Shown piece after piece: positions 26,532 to 37,057 of a DNA stretch of 37,680 bases. Source of the stretch: Natronomonas salinimetallica (GTDB lineage Archaea; Halobacteriota; Halobacteria; Halobacteriales; Haloarculaceae); assembly GCF_013839515.1 (NCBI RefSeq), contig NZ_JACDNQ010000002.1:146320-183999 (forward strand), given 5' to 3'. Positions within the stretch are counted from its first letter, which is position 1, and each line of letters starts with the position of its first letter. Under the pieces are notes generated by a model. That model saw only the letters and a program-made list of their open reading frames with translations, ran no database searches and was not told the DNA's origin. The position numbers and the translations under genes are program-made.

Positions 26532-27902
26532 CTACTGGTCGGTGAGCGTGGCCTGATACGCCTTTCCCGCCACGTGGTCGGGGACGGGAAGTTTTCTCAT
26601 CACCCGCGATTGTAACCGCAGGTAGCCGTTGGCCGCCCGCTGGCAGTTGGCTTCGAACCATGCGTGGGCGTCCGGGCTGTTCAGATACGCATGGAGTGCG
26701 TGGAGGTCGTCCGGGTCGTCGGGAATGATGTAGTAGACGCTGTGGCGTGGCACGACTTCGCCGGTCTCGTCCAGCCAGAACGTCGGGTCGTCGGTGACGT
26801 CCTGACACAGAATCTTCGATTGTAATATGTCCTCCATCGGCGGGTTCTCGTGCCAGCCATACCACGGGCGTTTGTCCTTCTCGACACACGAACGGTCTTC
26901 GAGGCGGTCGCGGCGGAAACTCGCCCAGTCACCGAACGCCCCGATGTCGTCTTCGGGAGGGAGTCGACCGTCCTCACGGTACGGACAGATGAACACCTCG
27001 TCGCTGTCGGGGCCGTCGTTGATACGGAGCTGTTTCCCCGAGGTCGTCGGGTACGTCCAATCGGAGAGCTGTTCGGGGACTCCGTCGGCGTCCTGTACGA
27101 ACACGCTGTCCGCTCCCGTGGCGACGCCACAACTGACGCGCTGACACACGTCGCCCAGCGTTCGGTTCCCCGAGACGGTCAGTGTATCGCCACCACGGAT
27201 AGTGCTCGCCCAACTACTCCCGTCGGCACGCAGCGTGACGGTTTCCTCACTTCCATCGCGTCGGCGCACTCGTGTCTCGCCCGGTTCGGTGGCGTCGACC
27301 GTCGTGATGGCTGGGTACGTCGTGAAGCCGTCGAAGGCGTTCTCCTCGATGTGATGTATCCCTCCAACGTGGTAGTTCTGCCCGAGGAGACGCCGGAGCG
27401 GGGCCGCTGTCTCGGTGTATTCGAACTTCTCCGGCGTGATGAACGTCAGTCGGCCACCGTCGGCGAGCACGCTCAAAGACTGTTCGATGAACAGGATGAA
27501 CAGGTCGAACCGCCCGGTCGCTGTCTCGAACCGTTCCTTGTATTGAGTCTTTTCCTCCTCGCTCAGTCCCTCGATGGGGACATATGGCGGGTTCCCGACG
27601 ATGTAACGGAACTCGCCGAGGTCGGAGAGGTCGCCGAGGAAATCACGTTCGAGGAGGTCGACACCAGCGTCGGCGTGGGTCTCACGGGCTTCGGACAGCA
27701 GTTCGGGGTCGGTGTCCATCCCGACGCCGTCGGGAACGGGAAGCCCTCGCGTTTCGCAGTATCGCTGAACGGCGGCGACGAACGGGCCGGTTCCGACACC
27801 GGGAAAGAGAATCCGGTCGCCTTCGGACGGCGGCCTACCGTCAAATAACTTCTCGACAATTCGGTCAGCAAGTGCGGGCGGCGTCGGGACGTGACCCTTC
27901 AT
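26532..27902 (-). CDS. Adenine-specific DNA methyltransferase, Eco57I-like (modification gene)
   Basis: The 456-aa protein has motif I ILFPGVGTGPFVAAV (about residues 31-45), acidic motif II GMDTDPE, motif IV NPPY at residues 104-107 followed by VPIEGLSEEEKTQYKERF, and a FDLFILFIEQSLSVLADGGRLTFITPEKF segment. These mark an N6-adenine methyltransferase. The C-terminal half resembles TaqI/Eco57I-type target-recognition regions (VPRHSVYYIIP; LHALHAYLNSPDAHAWFEANC; LQSRVMRKLPVPD). It lies directly downstream of the broken nuclease gene on the same strand, 50 nt apart, and appears intact. It is therefore an orphan methylase of a lost restriction system. ATG 27902 is chosen because a TATA-like TTTAAATA lies about 33 nt upstream. 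A longer frame upstream would overlap the promoter. Confidence 0.92.
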   Translation of the reverse strand: MKGHVPTPPALADRIVEKLFDGRPPSEGDRILFPGVGTGPFVAAVQRYCETRGLPVPDGVGMDTDPELLSEARETHADAGVDLLERDFLGDLSDLGEFRYIVGNPPYVPIEGLSEEEKTQYKERFETATGRFDLFILFIEQSLSVLADGGRLTFITPEKFEYTETAAPLRRLLGQNYHVGGIHHIEENAFDGFTTYPAITTVDATEPGETRVRRRDGSEETVTLRADGSSWASTIRGGDTLTVSGNRTLGDVCQRVSCGVATGADSVFVQDADGVPEQLSDWTYPTTSGKQLRINDGPDSDEVFICPYREDGRLPPEDDIGAFGDWASFRRDRLEDRSCVEKDKRPWYGWHENPPMEDILQSKILCQDVTDDPTFWLDETGEVVPRHSVYYIIPDDPDDLHALHAYLNSPDAHAWFEANCQRAANGYLRLQSRVMRKLPVPDHVAGKAYQATLTDQ

Positions 27903-27927
27903 ACCCTCTGTTAGGGGCCTCGAGTTA

Positions 27928-27942
27928 TTTAAAGTTATTTGA
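27928..27942 (-). promoter_or_regulatory. TATA-like box of the methyltransferase gene
   Basis: The - strand reads AACTTTAAATAACTC about 30 nt upstream of ATG 27902, between two CTCGAG hexamers and over a GTTATTT direct repeat. It suggests that the methyltransferase can be transcribed independently of the upstream nuclease gene. Confidence 0.5.
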
Positions 27943-27952
27943 GTCTCGAGTT

Positions 27953-28100
27953 TCACTCGCGGGTGACGCCCCACTCGTTGAGGTGGTCGACGAGCCGGTC
28001 CAGTTCGTCCTGAAACACCACCGCGTGAATGTTCGCCGCGCTCGCCTTGTGAACCTCCTCGCGTAGTGCTTCGCGTCGTTCTCGTAGATTAAACTGTGTG
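27953..28100 (-). pseudogene. Restriction endonuclease gene, C-terminal fragment
   Basis: The - strand reads a 47-residue tail containing LREEVHKASAANIHAVVFQD then ELDRLVDHLNEWGVTRE, ending with TGA at 27953-27955. It has no start of its own. Its upstream edge is the 407-bp inserted element. After one GTGTG copy is removed, the frame joins exactly to the end of the fragment at 28508-29149. It ends 50 nt before the methyltransferase start. Confidence 0.8.
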
Positions 28101-29149: not shown

Positions 29150-29206
29150 GTGAACTACCCCACCCTACTCGCTCACGGCTGAGGCCGTTCGTTTCCTGAG
29201 GGTAGT

Positions 29207-29255
29207 GCGGGACCTTCGGTCCCGCTGACCATGCGAACGGGCGCTTCGCGCCCGT
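29207..29255. repeat. Twin hairpin at the tnpB 3' end
   Basis: GCGGGACC-TTC-GGTCCCGC (29207-29225) and ACGGGCGC-TTC-GCGCCCGT (29237-29255) are two perfect 8-bp stems with 3-nt loops separated by 11 nt, inside the last codons of tnpB. This is the zone where TnpB guide (omega) RNA scaffolds usually end. Confidence 0.8.
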
Positions 29256-30139
29256 GAGCAGATGGGGCTTCCTGTTTCGACGACGTGACTTGCAGACACC
29301 TCTCGAAAGTCATCGGCGTCCGTAGCGGTCACAGTCTCCACAGGCGTTGATTCGGGCCATCCCAGCCCTAACTCAGCAAACCCGCGTTGCAAGACATTCA
29401 TCGCTGCATTCGCATCTCTATCCGTCTCGAATCCACACGACGGACAGGAGTGTTCCCGAACCCAGATAGGCTTCGCCGTCTCCACGCCACACCGAGCACA
29501 CTCTTTCGTCGTCCCCGCAGCTTCTACTTGAACGACGTGACAGCCGTACATGTCGGCCTTGTATTCGAGGAGCGTGATGAACTGTCGCCACGCCGCGTCC
29601 TGCTTGTTTCGGGCGTTCCCGTCGCCCTGAAGCATCCCCGTCACGTTCAAGTCCTCAACGAACACGGCATCGTACTCTGTGACGAGCCACGTCGTGATCT
29701 TGTGCTGATAGTCCAGTACCTTCCGCCGAATGTGGCGCTTGACTTTCGCTACCGCTCGGCGTTGCTTCTCGTAGTTGTTCGACCCTTCTTCCTTCCGCGA
29801 GAGTTTGCGTTGTTCGCGCTGAAGACGCTCGTACTCGTCTTCCAGCTCGAGCCAATCCACGGCAATCCCGTCAGAGGTGTGGATGTAGTTCAGGATGCCG
29901 AGGTCGATCCCGACGCTGTTGCTCGCGTCCAGCGAGTCCACGTCAGGTTTCTCGGGCAAGTCAGCCTCGTCTGTTTCGAGACCGAAGGAGACGAACCACT
30001 CGCCGGTTGTCTCCTCTTTGATCGTGACTTCTTTGATGTCAGCGTCGGCGGGGAGCTCGCGGTGATAGCGTATCTTCAGGTCGCCGATCTTGGAGAGTAC
30101 CAACGTCGCATGCCGGCCACTCGTGTTTTTGAGTTCGAA

Positions 30140-30191
30140 ACCGTCATCAGAAATCTCCGATTTCTGATTGCCCATCAGACGTAGTCTGATG
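30140..30191. repeat. 52-nt twin-hairpin insertion inside tnpB
   Basis: A 48-nt segment plus a 4-nt duplication (ACCG at 30140-30143 and 30192-30195). It contains CAGAAATC-TCC-GATTTCTG (30148-30166), a 6-nt spacer and CATCAGAC-GTA-GTCTGATG (30173-30191). Removing it restores the TnpB frame between residues SQSG and FELKN. The 8-3-8, 6, 8-3-8 layout is the same as in the solo elements at 1.6, 15.8 and 37.1 kb. Confidence 0.85.
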
Positions 30192-30589
30192 ACCGGACTG
30201 TGAAAACGTCATACTCTGGAACTCTCGGGGTGACTTCCAGTTGAGTTTCCCGACCGTGTTCCCGTTGTCTTTCTGGGCTTTCAGGTTTGAAAGGTTCTGG
30301 TAGAACCGGGTGACGGTCCGTTGCAGAGCCTTGGAGTTGACTTCCGAGAACACAGGGAACTCGTCTTTCCAGTCGGGGAGTCGGTAGTGGTGTTTGTACG
30401 CGGAGCCGATGTCGTCGGCGTCCACGTTCTCGTACTCGTACAGTGTGTAGTTGTACGCTTGGCGATGAATGTCGATATGGCGTTTCAGGTCAGCCGCTAC
30501 CTCTTGTGTCGGGGAGGCGTGGTAGCGGTGACTGTACTCCATCGCTATCTCTTGATTAGGGATATGTCTATGTAATTGTTTGTACTGGC

Positions 30590-33570: not shown

Positions 33571-35391
33571 ATGGCTGGACGCGAGTACGTCCTGCGAGCG
33601 GATCTTTCGGCAGGGACTATCAGCCGCGAGCGCATCCCCGAGCGGTGGCGTCGCCGCTTTCTCGGTGGAAAGGGCCTCGGCGCACGCTATCTCTACGAGG
33701 AACTCGACGCGGGCACCGATCCGCTCGGCCCCGAGAACCTGCTGGCCTTCTGTATCGGCCCCCTTTCGGGGTACCTACCGGGAGAAACCCGCTACGCCGC
33801 AGTGACGAAATCGCCGCTCACTGGCGGCTTCCTGGATTCGTACGCCGGCGGCGCCTTCGCGGGCCGACTTGTCGGGTCACTGGACGACTGTCTCGCGTTG
33901 CTCGTAAGGGGCGAAGCCGACGAGCCGATTCGTATCGTCCTCGAGGACGGCGACGGCCGCATCGAACCCGCCGAGACGTGGGGCGAAGACACGGTTGGGA
34001 CCGCCGAGGCGTACCCCGATTCCGGTGTGGCCTGCATCGGTCCTGCCGGCGAGCGCGGCGTCGCGTACGCGACTATCGCTTCCGACGCAGGCAACCATCA
34101 CGCCGGCCGTGGCGGCGCGGGCGCGGTCATGGGCGCGAAACGGCTCAAGGCCGTCGTCGCCGGGGACGACGCCCCCGAGACGCTGCCCGAACTCGCCGAC
34201 CTCCGGGCACGCTACGAGCGGGAGTACGCCGAGGGCGACACAGGGCGGTGGCAGGCCGCCAGCGAGACGCTCGAAAGCATCGACTTCGCCAACGAGGTCG
34301 GCGCCCTCGCCACCGAGGGCTGGCAGCGCGACCGGTTCGAAGCCGCGGACGACATCGGTATCGAGGCCGCCGAAGACGCCGCCGTCGGCCGGGAATACCC
34401 CGATCGGGAGGTGCCGGGTGGCTTCGAAATCGAGACCGACGAAGGCACGTCGGTACCCCGCGGCGCGACGCCGATGACCCTCGGGGCGGGCCTCGGCTTG
34501 GATGAGTTCGACGCCGTCGCGGAGTTAGGCGGCCTCTGTGACCGCCTCGGCATCGACGTTATCTCAGCCGGAAACGCCGTCGCGTGGGCGATTCGGGCCG
34601 TCGAGGCCGGTCGTATCGACTGTGAGTTGGCCTTCGGCGACGCCGACGGCGCCCGGAGCCTCATTGAGGCCATCGCGACCGGCAGCGATGGCCCCTGCGA
34701 GGCTGGTGTCGCCAAGACGCTCGCGCAGGGCGTCGATGCCGCTGCGAGCGAGTACGATACCGACGGCGGCATCCCGACGGTCAAGTCGATGGAACTGCCC
34801 GCCTATGACCCCCGGGCGGCCGTCGGGATGGCGCTGGCCTATGCGACGAGCGACCGGGGGGGCTGCCACCGGCGGGCTCGTCCCATCGAGTGGGAAGCCT
34901 TCGCCGAGGACGCCGACGCCGGCGAACGGGTCGCCGCGGTCACCGTCGCTCAAAACACCCGCTCGGCGCTGTGGAGTTTCGTCGCCGACGACTTCGCCGG
35001 CGAGCCGCTGTGGGATGATTTCGGCGCCGAGTGGTTCGACGCGCTCGGATACGACTACGACTCCGTTGACCTCCGGCGGATCGGCGAGCGCGTCTGGACG
35101 CTCGTACGCCTGTTCAACGCCCGCGAGGGCTTCGACCGGGCGGGCGACGAACTGCCCGCAGCCTTCAGTGATCCGATCCCCGACGGCCCGGCGGCGGGCG
35201 ACCGCATCGATCCCGAGGGGTTCGAACTCCTGCTGGATGCCTACTACGCGGCCCGCGGTTGGAACCGCGAGGGCCAGCCGACCCGCGAGACGCTCGAACG
35301 GCTCGACCTCGAAACGGCCGTCGACCCCGAAACGCCGGTCGGAAACACTCCTAAAATCGCCCCGCGAACCGAATCCAATGACGATGACTGA
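33571..35391 (+). CDS. Aldehyde ferredoxin oxidoreductase-like protein lacking the [4Fe-4S] motif
   Basis: The 606-aa protein has the AOR family length. N-terminal domain features are RFLGGKGLGARYLYEEL, GPLSGYLPGETRYAAVTKSPLTGG, DSYAGGAFA and HHAGRGGAGAVMGAKRLKAV. In domain 2, LCDRLGIDVISAGNAVAWAI matches the first pterin-binding loop (D-x-x-G-hydrophobic-D), and GERVWTLVRLFNAREGF is the late conserved helix. However, the CxxCxxxC cluster motif expected near residues 275-300 is replaced by sequence around DREVPGGFEIETDEG. The last cluster cysteine is also missing (NTRSALWSF in place of a C-containing loop). Tungstopterin binding may remain, but electron transfer to ferredoxin by the usual route is unlikely. 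It overlaps the next gene by 14 nt. Confidence 0.88.
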   Translation: MAGREYVLRADLSAGTISRERIPERWRRRFLGGKGLGARYLYEELDAGTDPLGPENLLAFCIGPLSGYLPGETRYAAVTKSPLTGGFLDSYAGGAFAGRLVGSLDDCLALLVRGEADEPIRIVLEDGDGRIEPAETWGEDTVGTAEAYPDSGVACIGPAGERGVAYATIASDAGNHHAGRGGAGAVMGAKRLKAVVAGDDAPETLPELADLRARYEREYAEGDTGRWQAASETLESIDFANEVGALATEGWQRDRFEAADDIGIEAAEDAAVGREYPDREVPGGFEIETDEGTSVPRGATPMTLGAGLGLDEFDAVAELGGLCDRLGIDVISAGNAVAWAIRAVEAGRIDCELAFGDADGARSLIEAIATGSDGPCEAGVAKTLAQGVDAAASEYDTDGGIPTVKSMELPAYDPRAAVGMALAYATSDRGGCHRRARPIEWEAFAEDADAGERVAAVTVAQNTRSALWSFVADDFAGEPLWDDFGAEWFDALGYDYDSVDLRRIGERVWTLVRLFNAREGFDRAGDELPAAFSDPIPDGPAAGDRIDPEGFELLLDAYYAARGWNREGQPTRETLERLDLETAVDPETPVGNTPKIAPRTESNDDD

Positions 35392-36061
35392 CAAGATCGA
35401 CCTCGACGATATCGACACCGACGATGCCGACGAGCCGGAGACCAACCACGGTGACTGGGTGTGGCGCAACGATGGGGCTCCCGACGCCGACCCCGAGGTG
35501 CCGATGACGGCGGCGGGCGCCGGGAGCGGGACCAATACCGACACGACCGGCGAGGAGGGGCCCGTTCCGCGCGTCCCCCGGGAGAACGAGGACAAGCCCG
35601 CGGGTGTGCCGACCGAAAGCGGTGGCTCGGGCGCTGGCGCGACCGTCAGCAACGCCCCTGACGACGCCGAGCCGATGGCCGAAGGCCCCCACGGCGGCGG
35701 CGTCGACGACATGACGTTGGCCTTGTCCTACAACGCCGTCACCGAGCTGGCCGACCCACAACTGGTTGTCGTCTCGGCCCGCGAGTGGGCCGACTGGGTC
35801 GGTATCGTCGGTGACGTGAGCGCGCCGGTGATCACCAAGTTCCAGCGTGAACACGGCATCGATGCCGACTTCTTCAACGGGACGGGGACCGGCCCCGCCG
35901 AACGGCTCGCCGATATCGGCAAGACATCGATGTTCTACGCCGATCGACTGGCCGTCGTCGGCACCTCCGGCGACGAGTGGATCGCCGAGGAAGCCGGCTG
36001 GGAGTTCGTACCGCTGGAAAAAGCCGCCGAGAAGGCCGACTGGGAACTCGAAGAAGGATAG
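35378..36061 (+). CDS. Haloarchaeal conserved protein, probably DUF7124
   Basis: The 227-aa protein has an N-terminal ~110 residues that are acidic and low in complexity (DLDDIDTDDADEPETNHGDW, many Gly/Pro/Thr), so probably disordered. The C-terminal ~110 residues are a compact domain (DDMTLALSYNAVTELADPQL; AREWADWVGIVGDVSAPVIT; KTSMFYADRLAVVGTSGDEW; WEFVPLEKAAEKADW). I associate this with the haloarchaeal DUF7124 group, with moderate confidence and no known function. The start overlaps the AOR-like gene by 14 nt (an ATG at 35384 is the alternative), so the two are translationally coupled and probably work together. Confidence 0.82.
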   Translation: MTMTDKIDLDDIDTDDADEPETNHGDWVWRNDGAPDADPEVPMTAAGAGSGTNTDTTGEEGPVPRVPRENEDKPAGVPTESGGSGAGATVSNAPDDAEPMAEGPHGGGVDDMTLALSYNAVTELADPQLVVVSAREWADWVGIVGDVSAPVITKFQREHGIDADFFNGTGTGPAERLADIGKTSMFYADRLAVVGTSGDEWIAEEAGWEFVPLEKAAEKADWELEEG

Positions 36062-36579: not shown

Positions 36580-36600
36580 ACGTTAACACATATTCCGTTT

Positions 36601-36609
36601 GTATAAAAA
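36601..36609. promoter_or_regulatory. TATA-like box between divergent small genes
   Basis: GTATAAAAA on the + strand, TTTTTATAC on the - strand. It has leaderless spacing to ATG 36579 (- strand). For the + strand gene at 36656 it would give a leader of about 25 nt. Confidence 0.55.
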
Positions 36610-36655
36610 CGTTATCGGCGCAATCGTTTTAGATCCCACACTGATACATCGTCGC

Positions 36656-37057
36656 ATGCGAATCGAGCTGCGGGTGTGTAAACACTGCTACGAAGGGGAA
36701 CACGGGAACCAACGCAAGACCGAAGTGACGAGGGATATGGTCAACTGCGCCGAGCAGGTCCGCGAGTACAAGGACCTGATCGGCCTCGACTCCGTCTACA
36801 TCACCAGAGTTGAGGAGGGCGATCCCGGGGGAGCGGAGGCCCTGCCAGCCATCGTCGCCAGCATCGAGAACAACCAGGTGACTCTCTCGGACACGCAGTT
36901 GGTGATGGAAGACGAAGACGGGAACATGTTGGTGTACCCGGAACCGAATGACATCCTCGAGGTTCTCACGCGCAACATCGACCAGATCCAAGAACAGACA
37001 CGGCAGGACGTCACCGTGGAGTTATCCGAAGAGGGGGCCGAGCTGCTGACGGCGTGA
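36656..37057 (+). CDS. Hypothetical acidic protein, 133 aa
   Basis: Starts MRIELRVCKHCYEGEHGNQR. The N-terminal CKHC pair could bind metal, but a second pair is absent (one more Cys in MVNCAEQ). The middle has IVASIENNQVTLSDTQLVME and EDGNMLVYPEPND, beta-rich in appearance, and the end is a helical acidic tail (ELSEEGAELLTA). No family recognised. The TGA stop is part of the GTGAA terminus of the tnpB remnant that follows, so the original C-terminus may have been different. ATG 36656 is the first in-frame ATG after the TATA-like box. Confidence 0.75.
   Translation: MRIELRVCKHCYEGEHGNQRKTEVTRDMVNCAEQVREYKDLIGLDSVYITRVEEGDPGGAEALPAIVASIENNQVTLSDTQLVMEDEDGNMLVYPEPNDILEVLTRNIDQIQEQTRQDVTVELSEEGAELLTA

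Follow-up and report, generated by a model that had tools for sequence, protein, structure and literature searches.

A single clade of haloarchaeal aldehyde ferredoxin oxidoreductase-like proteins without [4Fe-4S] ligands, linked to formate dehydrogenase and cofactor genes

Why would a protein of the aldehyde ferredoxin oxidoreductase (AOR) superfamily be kept at full length without the cysteines that hold its iron-sulfur cluster? In AORs, this cluster hands electrons to ferredoxin. The question is raised by a gene in a 37,680-nucleotide stretch of DNA from Natronomonas salinimetallica, called the window here, in which an uninterrupted open reading frame (33571-35391, + strand) encodes an AOR-like protein of 606 residues. 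An earlier note on this DNA had described a full-length AOR with its N-terminal landmarks and first pterin loop. In line with this, a Pfam scan assigned residues 7-198 to AFOR_N (PF02730; E value, 2e-58) and residues 213-580 to AFOR_C (PF01314; E value, 5e-84), and the alignment showed that the first pterin loop, CDRLGID (residues 323-329; 34537-34557, + strand), is kept. No Pfam family besides the two AOR domains, FdhD (PF02634) included, was found at an E value of 0.1, and the PDB sequence relatives were AOR-superfamily enzymes only. The chain aligns over its whole length with Pyrococcus furiosus AOR (1aor), and an AlphaFold model built from window and locus sequences (mean pLDDT, 93.8) matched 1aor with a Z score of 48.7 and an rmsd of 1.9 over 570 residues. 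By both domains and predicted three-dimensional fold, the protein thus belongs to the AOR superfamily. Two further AORs are encoded in the host genome (contigs C4 and C11, respectively), each with CxxCxxxC.

The ligand positions were mapped in an alignment of 65 orthologues from the same order that lack the iron-sulfur ligands (Fe-S-less AORs), 15 cysteine-bearing outgroup AORs, and P. furiosus AOR. Cys288, Cys291, and Cys295 of P. furiosus lie opposite Asp278, Val281, and Phe285 of the window protein (codons 278-285, DREVPGGF; 34402-34425, + strand), where the three ligand cysteines are absent in 65/65 orthologues, and Cys494 lies opposite Asp473. Over all four [4Fe-4S] positions, cysteine was found in 0/65 Fe-S-less orthologues, compared with all four cysteines in 15/15 outgroup AORs. 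Within the Fe-S-less clade, Cys288 and Cys291 are replaced by variable residues, Cys295 by Phe or Tyr, and Cys494 by an invariant aspartate (Asp473, 65/65). CxxCxxxC was also absent from all of 39 more orthologues from named haloarchaea, some of which come from the same assemblies. The claim of the earlier note that this motif and the distant fourth cysteine are missing at full length was therefore upheld across the subgroup. The only invariant cysteines of the clade are Cys323 and Cys432, whose P. furiosus counterparts are non-ligand residues. A replacement cysteine was thus ruled out, and the cluster cannot have shifted elsewhere in the chain.

The changes extend beyond the ligands. At the site of P. 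furiosus Glu311 and Glu313 (codons 297-299, RGA; 34459-34467, + strand), Glu311 has become an invariant Arg297, Tyr/Phe312 has become Gly298, and Glu313 is Ala, Gly, or Ser, each in 65/65 Fe-S-less orthologues; all 15 outgroup AORs carry both glutamates. DxxGLC, the second pterin/cluster loop, has been rewritten (codons 468-473, WSFVAD; 34972-34989, + strand), with an invariant Trp468 (65/65) in place of Asp489, a residue that is also missing from some cysteine-bearing AORs. Since this loop is altered, binding of two pterins is not assured. The catalytic His448 corresponds to His433, which is followed by two new invariant arginines (codons 432-435, CHRR; 34864-34875, + strand). The invariant residues new to the clade are Arg297, Arg434, Arg435, Trp468, and Asp473, among about a hundred invariant columns. 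Much of the cofactor site is retained: Thr243 in 63/65 orthologues, Tyr427 in 61/65 (Phe in the other 4), His448 in 65/65, and Arg76 in 63/65, together with the RGG and KxxK region and most pterin-fold residues. In the first pterin loop (DxxGxD), Asp338 is found in 55/65 (Asn in 10), Gly341 in 59/65, and Asp343 in 65/65. Excerpts of a 2026 survey of tungsten-containing oxidoreductases (WORs) state that the residues binding the tungstopterin and the [4Fe-4S] cluster vary very little and name Glu313, Thr243, Tyr427, and His448 as cofactor-site residues with hardly any variation (PMC13328260). As judged from the alignment, the loss is a coordinated one, in which conserved acids and the second pterin loop changed along with the cluster ligands; the earlier note had not gone this far.

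A motif missing from one lone sequence could be a mistake, and a pseudogene, frameshift, or sequencing error concealing the cysteines had to be considered. However, the same loss is seen in all 65 aligned and 39 named orthologues, the reading frames are intact, and dN/dS is about 0.2 (0.2-0.3 in pairwise comparisons). We regard such an error as ruled out for practical purposes. The same pattern, confined to one clade, bears out the view that the loss is specific rather than random decay.

Fe-S-less AORs were found in 71/146 genomes of the order, the host genome included, several of them with split or partial matches only; this count and the co-occurrence sets below were tallied by hand from result tables. 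A scan of named haloarchaea gave 39 loci, in Halorubrum, Haloarcula, Haloferax, Natrinema, Halobacterium, Halorientalis, and others. Outside the order, no orthologue in the score range of the clade was present among the matches listed from 345 genomes of the phylum. In a tree of 70 sequences, the Fe-S-less proteins formed one clade (support, 100/100) nested among cysteine-bearing AORs, with a cysteine-bearing group from haloarchaea and Bipolaricaulota as its sister. These closest relatives (L069, L071, L072, L137, L138, and L165; 40-42% identity) keep CxxCxxxC, and the haloarchaeal members examined are without formate dehydrogenase (FDH) or cofactor neighbours. The simplest reading of the tree is a single loss of the [4Fe-4S] site, in the haloarchaeal ancestor or early among haloarchaea.

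The surroundings of the gene were compared between 83 de-duplicated Fe-S-less loci and 54 cysteine-bearing AOR loci from the same order. At least one gene for an FDH, YqeC, MobA-like, TorD-like, MoaA, or HdrA-like protein lay within 4 kb at 66/83 Fe-S-less loci, compared with 1/54 cysteine-bearing loci (P value of about 1e-21, which is nominal because the loci are phylogenetically related). The most frequent neighbours were YqeC (39 of the 83 loci), MobA-like proteins (29), and FDH (29), and electron-transfer proteins were HdrA-like (14), NuoF-like (9), or FdhB-like (6). Both the FDH alpha subunit (TIGR01591) and YqeC (TIGR03172) scored over their cut-offs. Other neighbours comprised a NuoF-like FDH subunit, the MobA-like NTP transferase (PF12804), a TorD/NarJ-like protein (PF02613), a MoaA-type radical SAM protein (Mob_synth_C), and an HdrA/FlpD-like iron-sulfur protein. 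A gene for a protein of about 226 residues, a family with no Pfam match, was also seen near the Fe-S-less AOR at 13 loci (e.g., L130:10012-10689, - strand), often beside formate dehydrogenase. The window copy has no adjoining FDH or cofactor gene; YqeC and FDH are encoded on contig C26 and the MobA-like protein on contig C8. Upstream of it lies the diphthine synthase gene (dph5), and its sole follower is a gene for a DUF7124 protein.

This follower encodes 227 residues (35378-36061, + strand) and, with its ATG start at 35378, overlaps the AOR stop by 14 nucleotides; a second ATG lies at 35384. The product begins with an acidic tail (residues 1-104; 35378-35689, + strand) that contains 26 Asp/Glu and 5 Lys/Arg residues and the conserved short motifs IDLDD, GDWxWR, and PRVPRENxxKPxGVP. 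The overlap and the long acidic N terminus given in the earlier note were both reproduced. The tail is followed by a DUF7124 domain (PF23439; E value, 2e-38; 35711-36049, + strand), cysteine free in this copy, for which a small alpha/beta fold is predicted with moderate confidence (pLDDT, 80). The model gave no Foldseek match at an E value of <0.001, and its Z scores of 6 to 8 against HAD-like Rossmann cores fall within the range of chance arrangements. A HAD-like core is possible; an obvious DxD motif is absent. The DUF7124 family is near universal, being present in 144/146 haloarchaeal genomes, and the window gene is a second paralogue. A linked paralogue of this kind lies within 4 kb at 30/83 Fe-S-less loci and was not found there at 53/83, so that the coupling proposed in the earlier note holds for some members of the clade and fails as a general rule. 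No cysteine is invariant across the aligned domains, and no redox motif could be recognised in the linked paralogue, which speaks against a role as redox partner. DUF7124 would be an optional partner that is unlikely to carry electrons and is possibly an adaptor acting through its conserved tail motifs. A literature search of open-licence papers found no paper on DUF7124. The window AOR clusters with Halorubrum sequences (78-79% identity), and the copy in a genome of its own genus (G143) is only 59% identical; the window copy was therefore probably acquired horizontally. The AOR and DUF7124 pair is likewise Halorubrum-like (78-79%), and horizontal transfer is likely for it.

The distribution of Fe-S-less AORs across genomes follows that of YqeC and FDH. 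YqeC was present in 70/71 genomes with a Fe-S-less AOR, the exception being a genome that is 77% complete, versus 17/75 without. At the genus level, the only test through which kinship enters the co-occurrence P values, YqeC was present in 30/30 genera with a Fe-S-less AOR versus 6/26 others. In genera variable for the gene, the figures were 26/27 with it and 6/21 without. A strong FDH match was found in 64/71 genomes with a Fe-S-less AOR versus 9/75 without (20/27 versus 3/21 in variable genera); in the other seven genomes with the gene, the FDH-like matches were only weaker or fragmentary, below the threshold for a strong match. FDH is thus not strictly dependent on Fe-S-less AOR, given the nine genomes that have a strong FDH match without it. 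MobA-like proteins are widespread (122/146 genomes), so their co-occurrence says little and only their adjacency counts. FdhD is the usual FDH maturation factor. A search for it (FdhD-NarQ, PF02634) found 0/146 haloarchaeal genomes positive, and the same search found it in 8/14 controls, including other archaea. FDH homologues are common in the 146 genomes despite this result. YqeC has elsewhere been tied to selenium-dependent molybdenum hydroxylases (PMC2276186), and its deletion in Clostridioides difficile gave no clear phenotype (PMC11448449). The link to xanthine-dehydrogenase-type molybdenum hydroxylases that YqeC hinted at was dropped; these enzymes showed no association with Fe-S-less AOR (29/71 versus 37/75; P value, 0.32).

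The reading that we favour, at slightly under even odds (probability of about 0.48), is that Fe-S-less AOR belongs to the FDH/YqeC/MobA module as an accessory protein for the pterin cofactor, with no redox function of its own. An old paralogue of the tungsten aldehyde oxidoreductases would have lost its [4Fe-4S] site once and been retained as a distinct family, its remaining pterin-binding fold serving an accessory role that does not transfer electrons. The Mo/W-pyranopterin, or a precursor, would be bound beside the conserved His433, where Arg297, Arg434, and Arg435 make the pocket more basic, and the protein would finish, hold, or hand over the cofactor for formate dehydrogenase, sharing this work with YqeC and the MobA-like nucleotidyltransferase. 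Cofactor binding, the non-redox role, and the part in FDH maturation are what we infer from these patterns. Because the cluster, Glu313, and Glu311 are missing, the protein should not act as an aldehyde:ferredoxin oxidoreductase. Since no FdhD was found in haloarchaea, the protein may take on part of the job of FdhD. FdhD/FdsC proteins are bis-MGD chaperones required for the sulfido ligand and can function without their cysteines (PMC6239281), which makes it conceivable that an analogue would have no conserved CxxC. The more specific proposal, that in many haloarchaea an AOR fold stripped of its cluster was recruited as a Mo/W-pterin maturation factor at the FdhD step, is tentative, with odds of perhaps one in four.

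Of the two options left by the earlier note, a tungstoenzyme that uses another electron partner and a non-redox derivative, the evidence tends to favour the second, given the loss of the acids and second pterin loop and the cofactor and FDH neighbourhood. The first would have the protein still act as a W/Mo redox enzyme, with a bis-pterin centre, another substrate (perhaps formate-linked C1), and electrons passed straight to a protein or organic acceptor. It draws on the retained Thr243, Tyr427, and His448 equivalents and pterin-fold residues and on the FDH, NuoF-like, and HdrA/FlpD-like electron-transfer proteins at neighbouring loci. However, Glu313 and Glu311 are gone from every Fe-S-less orthologue, only a minority of the 83 loci have electron-transfer genes nearby, and a redox motif is lacking in DUF7124; we consider a redox role improbable, though the strongest of the competing readings. 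Somewhat less probable still is a non-enzymatic sensor, store, or scaffold whose task in FDH expression or assembly would be to report or buffer Mo/W-pterin status, with no direct cofactor chemistry. A fold retained while catalytic groups were lost would fit it, as would the optional nature of the gene even in genomes with FDH, but the invariant columns, with Arg297, Arg434, Arg435, Trp468, and Asp473 among them, point to a defined site for catalysis or binding. The dedicated complex with DUF7124 as functional or electron partner, which the earlier note had proposed, has the 14-nucleotide overlap and the linked paralogues with conserved tail motifs on its side; since DUF7124 was not found within 4 kb at most loci, lacks a redox motif, and belongs to a near-universal family, we give this reading little weight.

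How does the favoured accessory protein compare with known systems? Fe-S-less AORs share with the AOR superfamily (1aor; FOR, 1b25; and class I WOR, as described in excerpts of PMC13328260) two full-length domains, the fold (Z score of about 49), His448/Thr243/Tyr427, the first pterin loop, and the RGG and KxxK region. They differ in lacking the [4Fe-4S] ligands, in the replacement of Glu311/Glu313, in the rewritten second pterin loop, and in the invariant Arg297/Arg434/Arg435/Trp468/Asp473, which are the clade's own. WOR classes I to V, as far as the same excerpts define them, have class-specific subunits and a WorL with a [4Fe-4S] cluster, the ligands of which are missing here. The resemblance to FdhD/FdsC (PF02634) would be one of analogy, in the proposed FDH-linked handling of pterin cofactor; the protein family is another, and FDH is found also without Fe-S-less AOR. 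With YqeC (PF19842/TIGR03172), again another family, it shares the neighbourhood and an almost nested genome distribution. Whereas fold and superfamily are familiar, the passages covered from AOR/WOR papers did not mention Fe-S-less AORs, and a conserved single-origin Fe-S-less clade tied to FDH and YqeC was not found described in the open-licence papers searched. Although all members examined lack the cluster site, about half of the sampled haloarchaeal genomes have conserved the gene. The ties to FDH, YqeC, and MobA-like genes, together with the absence of FdhD matches, make haloarchaeal FDH maturation testable, and with it whether an enzyme fold can become a cofactor chaperone. They also caution against annotating Fe-S-less genes as aldehyde ferredoxin oxidoreductases.

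Three other features of the window were recorded. An open reading frame for 152 residues (36599-37057, + strand) had no Pfam match above the cut-off. A TnpB/OrfB_IS605-type transposase gene (29165-30542, - strand) is apparently split into overlapping frames at 29165-30175 and 30147-30542, and a protein with an Eco57I-type methylase domain is encoded at 26532-27974 (- strand).
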